In this document: in pieces, positions 1-22,644 of the stretch | How positions within the stretch are numbered: position 1 is the stretch's first letter | How the letters are laid out: every line of letters starts with the position of its first letter | Source: a virus | Reading direction: 5' to 3' (one strand) | DNA: 64,000 bases | IMG/VR virus record: IMGVR_UViG_3300017963_000024 | Location: 1-64,000 of that record | Made by a program: the position numbers and the translations under genes | The notes under the pieces: generated by a model | The model's input: the letters and a program-made list of their open reading frames with translations, nothing else | Told to the model about the DNA's origin: nothing | Databases searched by the model: none

Positions 1-375
1 ACCCTCTTTGGAAAAATCGGAGTGTCACCTGATGGGGAAGGTACAGGACAACTCCTTTCGTCCGCCTTTACAATCCCCGCCAATTGGACTGGTTTTTTTC
101 TCGGGGGGACGGTCTACGTCGCAACGGCAAAGCCAGCCTCCGTCGAGGTGAAGCAAAGATTGAGTGCTGATGTGGTTTCTTCTCCTTTCGGCGGGATGAG
201 CTATTGGGTCACGGCTTTTGGAATTGAGGGGCCTTTTGCGATCCCCATGAAAGGACCTTCCAGCCCAATCCCTTCAAAAACTGATTTGTGGGCAGCAGCG
301 AAAGGAGACTCAGTCACGAGTAAGATCTCCATCGAATATGAACTTTTGCTTGTCGCTAATTCTGTGTTACCGTAG
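1..375 (+). CDS. Partial phage structural (tail-type) protein, C-terminal part
   Basis: The frame is open to the left edge, so the gene begins outside the window. A GTG at 22 exists but has no convincing ribosome site. The visible part is Gly/Ser/Pro-rich and beta-prone, with an Asn-Trp-Thr-Gly-rich stretch near its start, and shows no catalytic motif. Its place directly before small membrane proteins and an endolysin suggests the last of a run of tail or baseplate genes. That role is inferred from context only; no family was recognised. Confidence 0.55.
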   Translation, partial: TLFGKIGVSPDGEGTGQLLSSAFTIPANWTGFFLGGTVYVATAKPASVEVKQRLSADVVSSPFGGMSYWVTAFGIEGPFAIPMKGPSSPIPSKTDLWAAAKGDSVTSKISIEYELLLVANSVLP

Positions 376-384
376 GAGCAAACC

Positions 385-567
385 ATGATGAATAGACCAC
401 TAGGCTTGCCCGTTGGAACTGTCAGAGCGATTCTGGCTCTCAGTATCATTGGAGTAACCCTTGCCATGTGGTTCCTTGGCAAGAACGTTTCCTCTGAACA
501 GTTGGCCCTTACCTCAATGGTTGGCGGTGTCTACTTCGGGGCCAGAACGCAGAATGGACACCAATGA
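385..567 (+). CDS. Small membrane protein, holin candidate
   Basis: This 60-residue protein starts at ATG 385 just after a GGAGC-type ribosome site, 10 bp past the previous stop. Residues 10-32 form a hydrophobic helix that begins VGTVRAILALSIIGV. A second, shorter apolar stretch is near the end. It is the first of three overlapping small membrane-protein genes that run straight into the endolysin, so a holin or lysis-accessory role is plausible. Many small phage membrane proteins look like this, so the call rests on context. Confidence 0.6.
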   Translation: MMNRPLGLPVGTVRAILALSIIGVTLAMWFLGKNVSSEQLALTSMVGGVYFGARTQNGHQ

Positions 568-866
568 AATACCTTTGGGAAGTGCTCAAACTTTTGCCAG
601 TAAAAGCGATTGCCCTGATCGCTCTGGCACTCGCGGGCATTTCAATCTACCACGTCTATGCTGGTGAGGTCCGTACAAATCGAGAGGGTCTAGCGGATAC
701 GACAGCGAAGGTAGAGGCTCAAGAAAAGACCCAGCAGGAGGTCAATCGAAGTCTGGAGAAGATTGCAGATGGGCAGGAGCGGCGTATTCAGTTCATTGAG
801 CAGCAGATGATGAAAGCCGCTGGTGTGCCATCTCAACCAAGTGAGGCAGGAGCTACGGGTCCATGA
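564..866 (+). CDS. Small single-span membrane protein with coiled coil
   Basis: The start overlaps the previous stop by 4 bp (ATGA). Residues 11-33 form one transmembrane helix. The rest (about 40-85) is charged and heptad-like, predicting an N-in or N-out anchored coiled coil. The topology resembles inner-membrane spanins, but no partner outer-membrane lipoprotein is nested here. A holin-associated or spanin-like role in the lysis cassette is inferred from its place two genes before the amidase. Confidence 0.55.
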   Translation: MKYLWEVLKLLPVKAIALIALALAGISIYHVYAGEVRTNREGLADTTAKVEAQEKTQQEVNRSLEKIADGQERRIQFIEQQMMKAAGVPSQPSEAGATGP

Positions 867-14445: not shown

Positions 14446-14889
14446 ATGACAAAAAATGAGATCGAGGCATGGGTGCGGGACTTTTGGCAGAGTGTCAGAA
14501 TTAGAGGAGAAAATGATTGTTGGAACTGGAAGTATCCTCTACGGAATGGGTATGGTGTTTGGAGCGGTAAGCCAGCCTCTCGTGTGGCTTGGATGCTTGC
14601 TAATGGCAGAGTTGCTCCAAAAGGAATGTTTGTTTGCCATACGTGCGATAACAAAGCTTGTTGCAATCCAAGACATCTCTACTTAGGAACACCAGCGGAT
14701 AACTCACAAGACATGGTTGAACGTGGTCGAACTCGCCGAGGTAAAATCACACACAGTGGCAAGCAACTTCGTGTGGCTGTTCTTCGTTTGATTGGTACTC
14801 TTCCTCAACGAGACATCGCCCGTCGCTTTGGAGTATCTGAAAGTTATATTAGCCGTATTAAGTCGGGCGACCGATTGAACGGAACTTGA
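14446..14889 (+). CDS. HNH homing endonuclease with C-terminal helix-turn-helix
   Basis: 147 residues. The HNH_3-type core is seen from CWNWK (residue 25) through a VCHTCDNKACCNP segment to HLYLGTPADNSQDM (to about 95). A helix-turn-helix follows (DIARRFGVSESYISRIKSG). Free-standing HNH nucleases of this type nick or cut specific sites and spread with their flanks. It stands between primase and AAA genes with its own promoter and no ribosome site. Two paralogues occur at 30941 and 32921. Confidence 0.87.
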   Translation: MTKNEIEAWVRDFWQSVRIRGENDCWNWKYPLRNGYGVWSGKPASRVAWMLANGRVAPKGMFVCHTCDNKACCNPRHLYLGTPADNSQDMVERGRTRRGKITHSGKQLRVAVLRLIGTLPQRDIARRFGVSESYISRIKSGDRLNGT

Positions 14890-14965: not shown

Positions 14966-16513
14966 ATGAAAGAGATTCAGGAACTTGTGTTGTCTGCAAG
15001 GAGTGTTTCGACTCCCTTGATAGGAGTCGAGACATCCGATCCAGCAGCGACGATTGCGGCCATCTCAGAGGCAGTCGTCAATGAGGAGGAAGGCGGAGAC
15101 AAGGTCCCTCAGATCGAGTGGGACATCATCCGTGGTTTGGTTGGAAGAAATCAGATCGGACAGAAGGTAGTGGCGAATTTGGCACCCCCGGAAGTGGACA
15201 TTGCTGCCATCTCACAGAATCCTTCGGAAGCGTTGGCACTTCTCCCGAAGGTTCCCGAACAGACAATCGTCTACTTTCACAATGCACAACGTTACTTGAA
15301 CCCACAGCTTCCGGGTAGTGAGGCGGTGGCACAGGGTATCTGGAACTTGAGGGATCAGTTCAAGTCAACATTCAGAACTCTCATTCTTCCCTCACCGATG
15401 TTGCGGCCCCCGGACGAACTGGCACAGGACATCATTGTGTTTAGTGAGCCGCTTCCAGATGACGAAAAGCTTGGAGAGATCGTCGATACTGTGTACGCAG
15501 CAGCGGACTTGGAAGCACCGTCGAATAGAAAGAAAGCCGATACGATATTTGCTCTGAGGGGCTTGGCAGCGTTTCCAGCAGAGCAAGTGACGGCAATGTG
15601 CCTCACCGAAGAGGGAGTCGATCTTGACGATGTGTGGGACAGAAAGCGGACGATGATCGAGCAAACTCGTGGACTAGCATTTCTCCCACGTCGATTCACC
15701 CTCAACGATGTTGGTGGATTGGATCAGATCAAGAAATTCAGTAAGCCGCTGTTTGCTGGGGAGTACCCACCGACTACGGTACTATTCATCGACGAGATCG
15801 AAAAGATGTTCGCTGGAGCGTTCGGCGGCGTGGCTGATTCTTCTGGTGTCAGTCAGGATCAGTTGGGGGTGATGCTTAGAGCGATGGAGGACAACAACTG
15901 GTCTGGCTGCATCTTCGTAGGTCCTCCGGGGACTGCAAAGTCGATGGTGGCACAGGCGATGGGCAACACCTACGGCAAACCAGTGATCGCAATGGATCTT
16001 GGAGCGGTCAAAGGCTCTCTCGTTGGTCAGTCGGAAGCTCAGATGAGAGGCATGATGAAAACCGTCTACGGAATCGGTGGTGATGGTGTGTTCATTGTGG
16101 CAACGTGCAACAGGCTGGAAAGCTTGCCACCGGAATTGCGGAGACGGTTCAAGTACGGCATCTGGTACTTCGACATTCCTTCAGAGGACGAGCGAAAGCC
16201 TATTTGGAAGTTGAACCTCAAAAGGTACAACCTGAAGAACAGCACTCTTCCAAACGATCACAACTGGACGGGTGCGGAGATCAGAAATGTTTGTGAACTC
16301 TCGTGGAGGTTGGGCATCTCTCTCGAAGAGGCTTCCAACTACATCGTCCCCGTGATGAAGAGCGATCCTGAAGCAGTCAATCGTCTCAGGAAGATGGCGG
16401 ATGGAAAGTTCTTGTCGGCAAGCTATGAAGGAACCTACGTGAGGCTGGACGTGGAGAAATCAACCAAGAAGGGGCGAAAGATTCGGGTAAAGGGACCGAA
16501 GACTCGTCAGTAG
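14966..16513 (+). CDS. Ycf46-like AAA ATPase with rearranged Walker B/Walker A order
   Basis: 515 residues. Residues about 85-165 resemble the degenerate first AAA unit of Ycf46 proteins. The active unit starts at LNDVGGLDQIKKF (247-259). A Walker B-like TVLFIDEIEK lies at 271-280, before Walker A GPPGTAKS (319-326). Downstream come LVGQSEAQMR (352-361), sensor 1 IVATCNR (377-383) and LPPELRRRF. In ordinary Ycf46 the Walker B segment lies between the QSE-type motif and sensor 1. The start is ATG 14966 behind AAAGGAGG. It should be an ATP-driven remodeller of its neighbours; the substrate is unknown. Confidence 0.82.
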   Translation: MKEIQELVLSARSVSTPLIGVETSDPAATIAAISEAVVNEEEGGDKVPQIEWDIIRGLVGRNQIGQKVVANLAPPEVDIAAISQNPSEALALLPKVPEQTIVYFHNAQRYLNPQLPGSEAVAQGIWNLRDQFKSTFRTLILPSPMLRPPDELAQDIIVFSEPLPDDEKLGEIVDTVYAAADLEAPSNRKKADTIFALRGLAAFPAEQVTAMCLTEEGVDLDDVWDRKRTMIEQTRGLAFLPRRFTLNDVGGLDQIKKFSKPLFAGEYPPTTVLFIDEIEKMFAGAFGGVADSSGVSQDQLGVMLRAMEDNNWSGCIFVGPPGTAKSMVAQAMGNTYGKPVIAMDLGAVKGSLVGQSEAQMRGMMKTVYGIGGDGVFIVATCNRLESLPPELRRRFKYGIWYFDIPSEDERKPIWKLNLKRYNLKNSTLPNDHNWTGAEIRNVCELSWRLGISLEEASNYIVPVMKSDPEAVNRLRKMADGKFLSASYEGTYVRLDVEKSTKKGRKIRVKGPKTRQ

Positions 16514-16528: not shown

Positions 16529-16852
16529 ATGCCTTGTGACAGAATCATCTACAATAGGTTGGAGTTGAAACTGGCCGATAGGAAAAAGCTGATCGAAGCT
16601 TTGAAGGCGGAGGGCATTCAGTTCAATGAGTACGGAAGAACTGTCAGTTTCTATGACAAACAAACCGGAATCTCAGGAGAGATCGGAAAAAGCGACATCA
16701 GACTCGATGCAACAGGGCAACGGGCAACCGATTTCGTCAACCGAATCAAGCGAGCCTACTCAACCCAAGTCGTCAAATCCACTGCCCGAACGTTCAAGTG
16801 GAACCTCAAGCAAGTTGGGCCTAATCGGTTCGTTGCTCAGAGACGCTTCTAA
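16529..16852 (+). CDS. Ycf35/DUF1257-like protein
   Basis: 107 residues behind AAAGGAGGAGCGAAAATG. The pattern of an N-terminal LIEALKAEGIQF, a strand-rich middle (GRTVSFYDKQTG), NRIKRAYSTQVV and a C-terminal RFVAQRRF resembles DUF1257 (Ycf35). To my knowledge such genes often lie beside Ycf46-like AAA genes and DUF2997 genes, as here. The assignment is by motif pattern only. A partner or substrate of the AAA protein is the likely role. Confidence 0.6.
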   Translation: MPCDRIIYNRLELKLADRKKLIEALKAEGIQFNEYGRTVSFYDKQTGISGEIGKSDIRLDATGQRATDFVNRIKRAYSTQVVKSTARTFKWNLKQVGPNRFVAQRRF

Positions 16853-16898
16853 AGGTGTCTTTGGCTTTGTGAAGCAAGCACAAGAAGCAGAGATAGCG

Positions 16899-17552
16899 AT
16901 GAAACGATTTACGTCCACAGTACAAAAGCTGTCAGCCGATGCGGAACTGGCAAAAGCCATGCGTTCCAAGTTGGTTCAGCAGATGAGGGAGGACAGAAGG
17001 CGAGCCGATGAACTAAGGCTTGATAGGAATGCAAGGCAGCGGGCAATCAGTCAGCTTCGTCGGGATCTGGAAGCCGAAGCGATGACTAGCATTCAGGTTC
17101 CCGTTGAAACTTTCGATTCCATTTCCACACCTGCCAAAGCTTTTGGAAAGCAGATGGATGCGGTTGCTGTTTGGTGGGTTGAGGAAGACGAAAAGCGGCA
17201 CGTAGTGGTTCTGGATGTGGAAGGTACTCTGCGGTGTTCTTGCATGGCGTGGCCGGACAATCTCAGTTGTGAGCACGTTAAAAAGTTTGCTGTGCTCGCA
17301 AGACAGCGTTGGGATTCATGGCAAGAGGAAAGACTGCTACAGCAAACAAGGGAACGAGAGACAGTCCAACTTCAGCGGAGAACTCTTGAACTTCGAGAAC
17401 GCCTTGAGGAGATAATGGGGCAGATGAAGATGTTGAAGGAGCGAGCACCGACAACATTTGCCATGCCGTCCGATGATGGTGGCGGGGCACTCTCACAAGC
17501 TGCAAAAAAACTTGGTCGGGCAATTCGGATCAAGAAGAAAGGAGGAGCGTAA
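16899..17552 (+). CDS. SWIM zinc-finger protein with coiled coils
   Basis: About 217 residues from ATG 16899. A SWIM-type zinc motif Cys-X-Cys-X8-Cys-X-His is clear in CSCMAWPDNLSCEH (near residue 110). Long charged coiled coils lie before and after it, and the C-terminus is basic. SWIM domains bind DNA or protein. The start is uncertain: the frame is open back to 16626, overlapping the previous gene, and GTG 16869 is also possible. The gene lies inside the AAA module, so it may be its adaptor. Confidence 0.7.
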   Translation: MKRFTSTVQKLSADAELAKAMRSKLVQQMREDRRRADELRLDRNARQRAISQLRRDLEAEAMTSIQVPVETFDSISTPAKAFGKQMDAVAVWWVEEDEKRHVVVLDVEGTLRCSCMAWPDNLSCEHVKKFAVLARQRWDSWQEERLLQQTRERETVQLQRRTLELRERLEEIMGQMKMLKERAPTTFAMPSDDGGGALSQAAKKLGRAIRIKKKGGA

Positions 17553-17752
17553 TGGGCAACGATCAGTTGGAGATCGAGATCATGGAAGATGGGACGATCA
17601 AGACAACGACAGGGAGGATCAGCGCAGCGAATCACAAGAACGCAGATGAGTTCATGGCAATGATGGCACGCATGACTGGTGGCAAGACAGAGTCACAGAA
17701 GAAAGCGCAAGCAACACCGACGCAGCATCATCACCAACTCATCCGTCGTTAA
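17552..17752 (+). CDS. DUF2997-like small protein
   Basis: 66 residues behind AAAGGAGGAGCG with a TAATG overlap. The N-terminal strands (LEIEIMEDGTIKTTTGRIS) match the pattern of DUF2997, small proteins often found next to DUF1257 genes. The end is His/Gln-rich. It probably belongs to the AAA-Ycf35 module; the function is unknown. Confidence 0.55.
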   Translation: MGNDQLEIEIMEDGTIKTTTGRISAANHKNADEFMAMMARMTGGKTESQKKAQATPTQHHHQLIRR

Positions 17753-17777
17753 TTGGGCAAACGAAAGGAGGAGCGAA

Positions 17778-18740
17778 ATGGCACAACAGGAAACAAAGAG
17801 AGTTCAAATCCAGAAGGGAACGATGATCCTTCATCTCTCATTCAGCAAACCGGGAATCGAGAGAAAGATTGATTCGGCGGACGTGGAACTTGAGGCAGAC
17901 AATTCGATGTTCCATGTCACGAAGGACATCATGGACAGCAAGGAACTGAAAGCGGTTCAGTCCTTCGACAACCAGACAACGAACCTCATCAGGAAGCGAC
18001 CGACGACGTTTCCATTCTTCAGAGGGATGCACGGTTTCTATACCATCCTCATTACCGATCTTGCCAGTGTCAATGCTTTGCTGCGGGATCGAGAGGCAAT
18101 CCGTAGTGGATTGATCGAGAAGTTCATCAAAGCCATCCCCCGTCTGAAGGAGGAAGCGAAACGAAGACTCGGCAAGCACTATGACGAGTCGGATTACTAC
18201 ACGGAGGAGCAGTATCGTGAGTTGTTCAGAATGCGGTGGACACCTGTGGAACTCGATGTTCCTGCCCGACTCGAAGACATCGACCCGGAGGAATACAAAG
18301 CGAAGTCGGCAGAGATGAATGAGCAGTACAATCTCCTGTGGGACGACATTCGATTGCTCATGCGGGTTGGGCTTCAGGGTATGCTCGACAAGTTCTCTGG
18401 TATCTTGAAGGGTGAGAAAGACGGCAAGCCGCTGACATTCAAGAACGTCACCTTCGACCGGATCATCGAGTTTGTTGACAACTTCGGAAGCAGAAACATC
18501 ACGAGTGACAAAGACCTCGCAGCGATTGTTGGGGAGGTCAAGGAGTTACTGGAACAGTTCGAGCCGGATGAACTCCGGTACTACTCCACCGACAACGATG
18601 AAGCACGAGGCGCAGTGAGAGAGCTTCGTAAAGCTGTTGCTGAAGGGTTGGACGAGATTACCGAGACGTTGAGCGGCATGGTTGGACCGAAACCTGTGAG
18701 GGCAATTCGTCTCAGGAAGAAGGTCAAGGCCAAGAAGTAA
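17778..18740 (+). CDS. Large helical protein of the AAA module, function unknown
   Basis: 320 residues starting MAQQETKRVQIQKG, set by AAAGGAGGAGCGAAATG. It is mostly helical, with WDDIRLLMRVGLQGMLDKF and DNFGSRNITSDKDLAAIV segments reminiscent of DUF3150-type proteins that accompany MoxR-like ATPases on plasmids and phages; I hold this loosely. The C-terminus is basic. It is the last large gene of the unit begun by the promoter at 14886. Confidence 0.6.
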   Translation: MAQQETKRVQIQKGTMILHLSFSKPGIERKIDSADVELEADNSMFHVTKDIMDSKELKAVQSFDNQTTNLIRKRPTTFPFFRGMHGFYTILITDLASVNALLRDREAIRSGLIEKFIKAIPRLKEEAKRRLGKHYDESDYYTEEQYRELFRMRWTPVELDVPARLEDIDPEEYKAKSAEMNEQYNLLWDDIRLLMRVGLQGMLDKFSGILKGEKDGKPLTFKNVTFDRIIEFVDNFGSRNITSDKDLAAIVGEVKELLEQFEPDELRYYSTDNDEARGAVRELRKAVAEGLDEITETLSGMVGPKPVRAIRLRKKVKAKK

Positions 18741-19191: not shown

Positions 19192-19479
19192 ATGCTGAGT
19201 GAGTTCAGAGAAGCTTTCGAGAAAGACTATTGGCCGAAGAGACGAACCGCCTGTCATCTTTACTTCATCAGTGGGGTAGCCCTGACGACAGCCGCAAAAG
19301 CGTTTATAGAGGAATCCTTTATCATGTTTGGAGTTCTTCTGCTTGTCTGTATCATGTTCTGGCAAGCAGGGCTGCGATTGGTGAATCGAGAAATCCAAAT
19401 CGAAGAAGAAGAGATTAGGAAGATGGAGGAGAAGGATGGCACTCGTAAAAGCGTTGGGAAGGACGAAACTGCTGGGTGA
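19192..19479 (+). CDS. Small two-span membrane protein
   Basis: 95 residues. Two hydrophobic helices lie at about 20-37 and 44-62 (FGVLLLVCIMFWQAG), followed by an acidic tail. It overlaps the start of the UDG-exonuclease gene by 44 bp. Membrane anchoring of the replisome or an unrelated role are both possible; no family was recognised. Confidence 0.6.
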   Translation: MLSEFREAFEKDYWPKRRTACHLYFISGVALTTAAKAFIEESFIMFGVLLLVCIMFWQAGLRLVNREIQIEEEEIRKMEEKDGTRKSVGKDETAG

Positions 19480-20656
19480 CTGCTGTGAGGATTGTCCGCT
19501 TCGGGAGAGAATCAAAGTTCTGCCGACTCTCCCACCGAACAGAAAAGTAACAGTCGTCGGGTTGGCACCCGGACAGACTGAGGAAATACAGGGCAAGAAC
19601 TTTGTAGGTCGGGCTGGTGCGCTCCTCCGAAAGATACTAGCTAAAGCTGGTCTTGATCCTACAGAGGATGTCGGCTACGTCAATCTGACTCGTTGCCGCC
19701 CAATCGACGATCAGTTCAATGCCGAATGGAACAAGGCGCGACGTAGGTGTGAAGGTTTCTTCATGGATGACCTTCTCACTCCCACCACCAGTTACAAGAC
19801 GGGCACTGGCCCGCTGCTGGTGTGTGGGACCGACGCAGTTAAGGTAGTCAAAGAAGACCGGAAAGCGCAGATCACGCAGGAACGTGGACTCTGGCAACTC
19901 TCTCCCGTTCGTCGTCCATTCATTGCTACATGGCACCCAGCAGCGATCTTGAGATCGGGAAGTCTCGAACGAGCAAAGCAGTTCGAGGAAGACATCTTCC
20001 GAATGGCAAAGCGGGTGAACCGTCAGGACAAACTGCCAAGCATCAAGCAGATCGTCTGCAAGAACATCGACACCGCTATTCCTTTTCTGACAAAGCTTGC
20101 CTTGCAGAAAACTCCGTGGGCGTTCGATATTGAAACCTATGATGCGAAAAAGTTTCCCTCTAGGAAGGGAGTGGCTGTTGATCCTTTCCACCCCGACTTC
20201 AGAGTTCGAGGAATCGCTTTTGCAACAAGTGACAAAGGGGGATTCTATGTCGATCTGAAAGAGGATGAGGAAAACATCCCGCTGGAGATTCGTACCGAAG
20301 GTGGTCAACTACTTACTGAAGTATTCACCAGTGGTGCGGACAAGTGGGCATACCACGGGAACTTCGATGAAGAAGGTTTAGTCGCACAGGGTTGGACGCA
20401 GAAAGTCACGAATAGGCGAGGTGATGGTCTGCTAGCTCTGATTGCTTTAGGTGACGGTAGACGATCCTCGAATACGCTTGCTCGTGCTGTGACTGAAGTC
20501 TTGAAAGAACCAACATATTGGGAAGCTGACAAAACAGAAATGCGGGATCTTCCCTTGGAGGTGGTAGCTGAAGGTGCAATCCGTGATGCCGTAGCAACTT
20601 TCCGCCTCGTGAAAAAATTGCATGGGTTCATGGAGAATGGAAAGTATTGTGTATGA
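19436..20656 (+). CDS. Uracil-DNA glycosylase fused to 3'-5' exonuclease
   Basis: 406 residues. Residues 1-200 match iron-sulfur UDGs (families 4/5): ligand Cys at 17, 20, 87 and 105, the GLAPGQTEE and FVGRAG motifs, and an ATWHPAA motif. Residues about 205-400 match a DnaQ-like/PolA exonuclease with FDIETYD (Asp231, Glu233). The polymerase domain is absent and is encoded separately at 21052. The fusion would remove uracil and proofread at the fork. The start follows GGAGGAGAAGG. Confidence 0.88.
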   Translation: MALVKALGRTKLLGDCCEDCPLRERIKVLPTLPPNRKVTVVGLAPGQTEEIQGKNFVGRAGALLRKILAKAGLDPTEDVGYVNLTRCRPIDDQFNAEWNKARRRCEGFFMDDLLTPTTSYKTGTGPLLVCGTDAVKVVKEDRKAQITQERGLWQLSPVRRPFIATWHPAAILRSGSLERAKQFEEDIFRMAKRVNRQDKLPSIKQIVCKNIDTAIPFLTKLALQKTPWAFDIETYDAKKFPSRKGVAVDPFHPDFRVRGIAFATSDKGGFYVDLKEDEENIPLEIRTEGGQLLTEVFTSGADKWAYHGNFDEEGLVAQGWTQKVTNRRGDGLLALIALGDGRRSSNTLARAVTEVLKEPTYWEADKTEMRDLPLEVVAEGAIRDAVATFRLVKKLHGFMENGKYCV

Positions 20657-21051: not shown

Positions 21052-22644
21052 ATGAAGATTGGAGACTACTACCACAAGATCTTGATGCCAGCGAATACTG
21101 CTGTAAGTTCCATGCGTATCGCTGGTATTCCCGTTAGCATGGAACGACTTAACGATTGCTATGTTGACTTCAACAAACGCATAGCAAAGCTTGAAAAGAG
21201 GCTAACGCGGAAGGCAAAAAAGAAAGGAATGGACCTCACATTCAGTGCAGCCCATCGACCTAGTACGATTGCGCTTCGGCAGTTTCTCTACGGACGCAAG
21301 GGCTTGGGGCTGGAATGTACGGTTTTTACGGACAAAACGAAGCAGCCCGCCACCAGTGCTGAAGCTTTAATGAGATACGCCTCCATCGCAAATCCTAGAA
21401 AAGACGATGTTCCAGAGGTTTCTGATCTTCTGAAGCTCAGTTCGCTGGCAAAGGCTGTAGCTACTTACGTTCTACCCTTTGCTAGAGCCGTTCGCGCTGA
21501 TGGGGCAATCCATCCAAAGTTTAATTGGGGAGTTGTGAGAACTCCGCGTCTGAGTGCTTCCGATCCCCCTGTTCATCAGATTCCAGAGAAAGCAGACAAA
21601 GAAGTAGCGGCTGGGATCAAACGTTGCTTCGTTCCCCGTGAAAAACCGTGCTTGGACCCGGAGGATTGGGACCCGCGTAAGCACGGTTCCTGTTTCAAGT
21701 GGGACATTTCGGGTGCTGAGATGGCTGTTCGCGCTGCTATGCTCACAAAGCTTTTTTGCAAGAGTGAGTTGACTCTGTGGGATTACATCCGAAATGGTAA
21801 GGACCCGCATGGCAAGACTGCTGCTCTGATGTACGATACTGAAGACGGAACCTACAAGAAGGGAGATTACGAGCGGGATGTTGTTGGCAAAATTTCAAAC
21901 TTCTCACTTCTGTACGGTGGATCGTCTTATACCCTACAACGAACGTTGCTCCTCAAGGCGCGTGTATTCTGGACGGATGAGGAATCTGCCTTGAGGCACG
22001 GACGATTTTTCGAGGGCTATCCCGAACTCGCTGAAATGTACGAGTGGGACAAAGCTTTTCTTGGGAAGAATGGGTACTGCCAAGATGGATACGGCAGGAG
22101 GCGTTGGATCGAGCTTCCAGCAAACGCAAAGTTCCTTGGAATTCGCTTTGGAAAAAGTCAGTGGAGGGTTCCTAGAGGTGATCGGCAAGCTTGGAGAGAA
22201 CTCGACCACTGCTTTCACGTTGCTGCGAACACACCTACTCAGGGAATGTCAGCAACAGACAATCTGTGGATGCTCGCTCTTTGCTTTCATGGTGAGTACG
22301 TCGAGTTGAGAGTTGTTCCCATGTGGGAGGACAAGGGTGGAGTGCTCTTTCCCGAAGCGAAGAACTGGCAGTTCCACGAAGGACCGGGACCGGGAGGGAA
22401 ACCATTCAAAGCTTGGCATACGAACACGGTTCACGACTCAGGTTGGGGGGATTGCGGTCCGGGGTATGTCGAACCAGTGATGAAGGTGATCGCACGGAGA
22501 TGCAGTGCGCTTCCGTTTGATTGGAGATTGAAAGCAGACGTTCCGTACAGAGTTGATCTGGAAGTAGGTCCAGACATGGGCAATCTGCGGGACTACAACG
22601 ACGTGGCGAAGGAGTTTGGACTTGAGCCAATGCCCGTCAGATAG
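21052..22644 (+). CDS. DNA polymerase family A, palm-fingers-thumb subunit
   Basis: 530 residues. Motif A is WDISGAEMAVRAA (Asp218). Motif B is RDVVGKISNFSLLYGG (Arg275, Lys280, Phe284, Tyr288). Motif C is VHDS (His461, Asp462), with Ser where most family A enzymes have Glu. There is no exonuclease domain; that is in the gene at 19436, so the enzyme is split in two polypeptides. It replicates phage DNA with the DnaB-like helicase and primase. The ribosome site is GCGGAGGAGCAAAATG. Confidence 0.9.
   Translation: MKIGDYYHKILMPANTAVSSMRIAGIPVSMERLNDCYVDFNKRIAKLEKRLTRKAKKKGMDLTFSAAHRPSTIALRQFLYGRKGLGLECTVFTDKTKQPATSAEALMRYASIANPRKDDVPEVSDLLKLSSLAKAVATYVLPFARAVRADGAIHPKFNWGVVRTPRLSASDPPVHQIPEKADKEVAAGIKRCFVPREKPCLDPEDWDPRKHGSCFKWDISGAEMAVRAAMLTKLFCKSELTLWDYIRNGKDPHGKTAALMYDTEDGTYKKGDYERDVVGKISNFSLLYGGSSYTLQRTLLLKARVFWTDEESALRHGRFFEGYPELAEMYEWDKAFLGKNGYCQDGYGRRRWIELPANAKFLGIRFGKSQWRVPRGDRQAWRELDHCFHVAANTPTQGMSATDNLWMLALCFHGEYVELRVVPMWEDKGGVLFPEAKNWQFHEGPGPGGKPFKAWHTNTVHDSGWGDCGPGYVEPVMKVIARRCSALPFDWRLKADVPYRVDLEVGPDMGNLRDYNDVAKEFGLEPMPVR

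Follow-up and report, generated by a model that had tools for sequence, protein, structure and literature searches.

Locus and domain map of the ATPase

The window, by which we mean the whole stretch of DNA analyzed, covers 64,000 nucleotides (positions 1 to 64,000) of the 86.8-kb virus record IMGVR_UViG_3300017963_000024. On its plus strand, an open frame at 14966-16513 gives, by translation, a 515-residue product with the two-domain architecture of Ycf46-like proteins and an AAA domain in which the Walker B unit lies ahead of the Walker A unit. The Pfam profile PF00004 matched this product in pieces (E value = 3e-15; 57 bits against a cut-off of 21). The features of the gene, and of two genes downstream of it, are as follows, with the evidence in parentheses.

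14966..16513, + strand: Ycf46-like AAA+ ATPase of 515 aa whose Walker A and Walker B blocks are exchanged (open reading frame and translation, PF00004, homologues)
14966..15661, + strand: N-terminal domain, residues 1-232 (alignment, secondary structure, structural alignment on p97, tree of the N-terminal domain only)
15713..15757, + strand: alpha0 with GGLDQIKK, residues 250-264 (alignment; helix 253-264 in the model)
15767..15898, + strand: moved block beta3-alpha3, residues ~268-311, with beta3 at 271-275, D276/E277, K280, and alpha3 at 295-309 (order, conservation, model, covariation)
15791..15805, + strand: DEIEK Walker B core, residues 276-280 (sequence, alignment)
15899..16081, + strand: Walker A block with beta1, P-loop, alpha1, beta2, pore-loop-1 position, and alpha2, residues 312-372 (alignment, model, matches to p97, Cdc48, and others)
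15920..15943, + strand: Walker A GPPGTAKS, residues 319-326 (G319, G322, and K325 invariant, n = 84)
16100..16111, + strand: sensor 1 ATCN with Asn382 (N382 invariant in the alignment)
16142..16147, + strand: arginine-finger position R393-R394 in RRRF (R394 invariant, R393 at least 90% conserved, n = 84)
16178..16399, + strand: lid or C-terminal small domain with WTGAEI (model helices 407-420, 436-449, 453-457, 463-466, and 468-478; alignment)
16529..16852, + strand: DUF1257 (Ycf35)-like partner gene, 107 aa (downstream position; iterated HMM)
17679..18740, + strand: DUF3150-like cassette gene, 353 aa (downstream recurrence, PF11348)

Along the chain, TVLFIDEIEKMFAG, which holds D276 and E277, comes after LNDVGGLDQIKK, and GPPGTAKS (319-326) begins 43 residues past D276. 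The gap between VGQSEAQMR and VATCNR amounts to about 16 residues and has no hydrophobic-DE motif. In other AAA proteins, alpha0 runs into Walker A. At the pore-loop-1 position the sequence is KGSLVGQSE, in which the usual aromatic residue is missing. R393-R394 presumably serve as the arginine finger, as in the AAA family generally; canonical relatives have RxxRFD there, whereas this protein has RRRF. WTGAEI in the lid resembles the SGA(D/E)-type motif that classical AAA proteins carry.

The N-terminal domain (1-232) is shared with canonical-order Ycf46-like relatives by both alignment and tree, and the best BFVD matches of the model in Foldseek carry the name ycf46. The two-domain architecture, with a Ycf46-type N-domain fused to an AAA domain, bore out the Ycf46-like identity first suggested from the sequence. 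The N-terminal domain itself resembles a P-loop/AAA-like domain that has degenerated and has no Walker A: in the stretch at 14966-15661, strands and helices follow one another as in an AAA domain, and VIA places it on the D1 range of p97 (model residues 1..492 on p97 209..764, Z = 18.4, rmsd 5.6, 406 residues aligned). Ycf46-like proteins may thus be tandem AAA proteins in which the first domain is degenerate.

The exchanged order is a trait of a whole phage clade

We collected full-length relatives from viral contigs, bacterial genomes, and annotated phages and called the order in each protein with a separate HMM for each block (Walker B unit, Walker A unit, sensor 1, N-domain, and lid). When viral contigs were queried with one planctomycete protein, no canonical loci were returned; a query with an alignment did find them. 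Among the 424 loci classed, 270 had Walker B first (142 distinct cores after repeats were removed), 151 were canonical, and 3 were left unclassed. None of the 424 carried the Walker B or the Walker A unit in two copies, as an intermediate that arose by duplication would. The usual AAA order (Walker A before Walker B, with beta1-beta2-beta3-beta4-beta5 along the chain) is therefore reversed in 142 distinct homologues, as the original prediction had it for the single protein.

The spacing of the motifs agreed with the block calls. The Walker A Lys and the sensor-1 Asn were 55 to 60 residues apart in 97 permuted proteins versus 96 to 101 in 65 canonical ones, where the Walker A Lys stands 53 to 54 residues ahead of the Walker B Asp. 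This span, shorter by about 40 residues, shows that the Walker B unit is gone from its usual place, and a second hydrophobic-DE between the Walker A Lys and the sensor-1 Asn was absent from all 97 permuted proteins. The earlier observation that the usual segment is short and lacks Asp-Glu thus extends to the homologues checked, none of which had a second conserved Walker B there.

When the canonical-order profile PHROG 8638 was aligned to the homologue from phage Tunturi_3, its pieces fell, in chain order, as 16-288, 365-404, 307-364, and 406-541, which is a clean swap of two adjacent blocks, fixed at block resolution. What moved is the central strand, as predicted, together with a helix: beta3 travels with alpha3. 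The description of the change as circular-permutation-like did not hold, because the flanks keep their place and two adjacent inner blocks are exchanged instead; a circular permutation, the one-cut exchange seen in RsgA, was rejected since alpha0 stays N-terminal and the part from beta4 to the lid stays C-terminal.

Most members of the permuted set are metagenomic, which might point to an assembly or sequencing artefact. The same order recurs, however, in many independent samples, in the isolated phage Tunturi_3, and in the complete chromosome of Nitrospira moscoviensis; the number of independent records rules this reading out, and we give it a negligible chance. The swapped order is a trait of the whole phage clade and not an oddity of one protein.

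The Nitrospira moscoviensis locus (NZ_CP011801, 1451460-1462920; L108) holds the permuted ATPase beside DUF1257-like, small DUF2997-like, DUF3150-like, CHC2-type zinc-finger, and SNF2-type genes and may be either what is left of a phage or a cassette that has been domesticated. Besides this copy, the genome has another permuted one, as well as a match in canonical order that contains one internal TGA.

Conservation of the catalytic motifs

We aligned 84 permuted homologues and found E277, K280, G319, G322, K325, N382, and R394 to be invariant and D276 to be at least 90% conserved. The AAA+ hallmarks Walker A, Walker B, sensor 1, and arginine finger were all present and conserved. A Glu replaces the Walker B Asp (D276) in a few members (L067, L068, L074, and L079, with VRIEEIEK or VRLEEIEK).

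These patterns bear on two other readings of the protein. According to the first, DEIEK is a chance or decorative motif and the true Walker B is degenerate at the usual place; the linkers that flank the DEIEK block are short on either side, which would suit it. Chance would not be expected to leave E277 and K280 invariant and D276 at least 90% conserved in 84 divergent sequences, however, and the block matches the Walker B block of canonical relatives over its full 40 residues. At the usual place, moreover, the stretch is about 40 residues shorter and has no hydrophobic-DE in the 97 proteins checked, so we judge this reading to be highly improbable. According to the second, the protein retains its fold but is a pseudo-ATPase, a mere nucleotide binder or a scaffold. 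That D276 varies in some members and that Walker A is often GPPGxAKS would fit such a protein, but no homologue in the alignment departs from the Walker A Lys, the Walker B Glu, the sensor-1 Asn, or Arg394, and such constancy would be unexpected once catalysis had been lost; we hold a pseudo-ATPase to be unlikely.

Predicted fold and covariation

An AlphaFold2 model built from the 84-sequence alignment had a mean pLDDT of 94.3 and a pTM of 0.88, scores to be read with the caveat that the model may be biased towards the known AAA fold. Its strands were beta3 at 271-275, beta1 at 313-318, beta2 at 340-343, beta4 at 375-381, and beta5 at 399-401, with the helices where expected. We superposed the AAA part on p97 D2 (6g2v) with VIA in sequential mode (Z = 16.2, 199 residues, 2.7 A) and compared it with the model of a canonical planctomycete sister (pLDDT 88.0, pTM 0.77; on 6g2v, Z = 24.1, 234 residues, 2.3 A). 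In this chain-order alignment the permuted model falls about 35 residues short of the canonical one, approximately the size of the moved unit, and elsewhere it superposes about equally well. Foldseek searches of the PDB and BFVD returned Ycf46-like and p97-like matches, in chain-order alignments that are silent on the site of the moved block.

Covariation was computed from the 142 permuted sequences (Meff = 124). Helices alpha3 and alpha2 were coupled at helix-turn steps (D298-E357, z = 11; A306-Y368, z = 6.9; also V302-M364), the pattern expected of two helices that pack in parallel. The start of beta3 was coupled with the end of alpha2 (T271-G371, z = 6.8; T270-G372, z = 5.9), positions that are 100 residues apart here and chain neighbours in canonical proteins, and E279 was coupled with the Walker A serine (E279-S326, z = 4.9). 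In the ranking of strand pairs, beta3 scored highest with beta4 and beta2 and lowest with beta1 and beta5, by a modest separation; these ranks agree with a 5-1-4-3-2 sheet in which beta3 lies between beta4 and beta2. A residue-wise comparison with the canonical set is limited by the shallowness of that set (Meff = 45). The couplings suggest that the moved unit adjoins alpha2, beta4, and beta2 as in canonical AAA proteins.

Covariation does not distinguish contacts in cis from contacts in trans, and the beta3-alpha3 unit might therefore complete the sheet of a neighbouring subunit in a domain-swapped ring. The monomer prediction is confident in cis, however, and the linkers of about 6 residues (alpha0-beta3) and about 3 residues (alpha3-beta1) would give the unit little reach, which leaves a domain swap very unlikely. 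An unswapped domain with the usual AAA fold appears to be kept, judging from AlphaFold2 and covariation, and secondary structure, the p97 alignment, and covariation together would place DEIEK at the ATP site. The original prediction had held that, if the fold is kept, the protein would represent a new AAA topology; the first part is favoured by the model scores and couplings given above, and as to the second, a chain order of 5-2-4-1-3 is probable.

A single origin of the exchange

We constructed trees after returning the permuted blocks in silico to canonical order. All 83 permuted rows lay on one side of one branch (SH-aLRT = 100), while shuffled labels needed 45 changes. The permuted clade was also recovered from the N-domain only (SH-aLRT = 97), from the C-terminal part only (SH-aLRT = 99), and from the flanks only, with the rearranged part left out (SH-aLRT = 100). 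Its sister group consists of canonical-order phage/viral and planctomycete proteins (support of 97 to 99), and the C-terminal motifs WTGAEIxxCC and PVxxS...LR..A.GR are common to both clades. Since the permuted forms are monophyletic in all trees, these results indicate a single exchange, and no reversal was seen in them. Aligning homologues to date the move, as had been proposed, thus traced it to one origin in the ancestor of the phage clade, next to a canonical sister group.

Proposed topology and its meaning

We consider it quite probable that the protein is a tailed-phage ATPase of the Ycf46-like, classical AAA type whose beta3-alpha3 and beta1-alpha1-beta2-alpha2 units were swapped a single time, in the ancestor of a large clade of phages. 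The exchange would create three new junctions (alpha0 to beta3, alpha3 to beta1, and alpha2 to beta4), each before a strand and at the sheet edge away from the nucleotide. As in other P-loop proteins of ASCE-type topology, the strands would all be parallel, with the nucleotide at their C-terminal ends; because the junctions are at the far edge, the Walker A, Walker B, and sensor 1 loops (after beta1, beta3, and beta4) would be untouched and would meet at the same site. The spatial sheet 5-1-4-3-2 would be unchanged, and its numbering along the chain would now read 5-2-4-1-3. The crossovers from beta3 to beta1 and from beta2 to beta4 would share their direction with the canonical crossovers from beta2 to beta3 and from beta3 to beta4, so that alpha2 and alpha3 would stay side by side on one face and every crossover would be right-handed. 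ATP would be bound and split by a ring, with Arg394 acting in trans.

A bolder reading, which we put forward tentatively and rate at somewhat below even chances, is that natural evolution has produced a topological isomer of the AAA+ core (5-2-4-1-3) that is fully active, became fixed once, and has been retained across a broad phage clade. In this isomer, allosteric communication among the N-domain, the nucleotide state, and neighbouring subunits would be rewired and not merely preserved, because the Walker B strand now directly follows alpha0 and the P-loop strand follows alpha3.

AAA+ is an intensively studied motor domain, and the Walker A-first order is taken as part of its definition and of motif searches. 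The phage clade is Ycf46-like AAA by sequence and neighbourhood, yet it does not have the defining order of Walker motifs. A single swap with later diversification, a living canonical sister, and the same neighbours make it a natural experiment in the rewiring of a beta-alpha fold with its active site retained. It is also a warning about filters on motif order and about profile or structure searches that proceed sequentially, which break permuted proteins into pieces or give them too low a score; Pfam, PHROGs, and the p97 alignment were all affected here.

Gene neighbourhood and possible function

The ATPase gene lies in the early/replication region of the phage, with genes for a DnaB-like helicase, primase, DNA polymerase, SSB, UvsX, and SbcCD. 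An HNH endonuclease gene with a helix-turn-helix-like end, resembling a free-standing homing endonuclease, is located between the primase and the ATPase (14446-14889). The DNA polymerase (PHROG 17) seems to be split between two open frames, 19436-20656 (profile positions 479-824) and 21052-22644 (profile positions 835-1241), that are separated by a small frame.

Downstream of the ATPase, an iterated HMM from the 107-aa protein reached relatives above the Pfam DUF1257 cut-off, and one relative of the 353-aa protein was barely above the PF11348 DUF3150 cut-off (25.1 versus 24.9 bits). The frame that follows the DUF1257-like gene (16853-17552) has a CxC...CxH pattern (CSCMAWPDNLSCEH) similar to a SWIM zinc finger and had no Pfam match. 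Among permuted loci with enough flank, DUF1257-like genes were found downstream in 116 of 136, DUF2997 in 71 of 136, and DUF3150-like genes in 74 of 86. The three families also occur beside canonical relatives, and since they are common to both kinds of loci, the orthologous system seems to be continuous across the rearrangement.

The protein is most likely a ring-forming remodelling ATPase that works with DUF1257, DUF2997, and DUF3150-like partners. It would act with their products in phage replication or assembly, and a chaperone-like role is our likeliest guess. The profile of the anti-phage ATPase IetA/IteA matched parts of the AAA domain only, and weakly, and a defence role of that kind was rejected (partial matches, 31.4 bits against an NCBIfam equivalog cut-off of 510).

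Comparison with known systems

In the open-access literature searched, we found no precedent for a permuted AAA domain or for Walker B before Walker A, nor one for the swapped order in work on Ycf46/DUF1257/DUF2997 and DUF3150. The closest relatives are the Ycf46-like AAA proteins of cyanobacteria, plastids, planctomycetes, and phages (PHROG 8638), which have the same N-terminal domain and AAA domain. Some of them have DUF1257 and DUF2997 neighbours, and the permuted loci share this arrangement with canonical phage relatives. The D2 domain of p97/Cdc48, a classical AAA domain, is alike in fold by alignment, but its motif order is canonical; such classical domains have an aromatic pore loop where the 515-residue protein has KGSLVG.

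Reordered nucleotide motifs are established in another class of P-loop NTPases, the circularly permuted TRAFAC GTPases RsgA/YjeQ and RbgA/YlqF, whose motifs run G4-G5-G1-G2-G3 (PMC6912228). RsgA and RbgA are GTPases that have undergone true circular permutation, whereas the phage ATPase is an AAA+ protein in which two inner blocks have been swapped.
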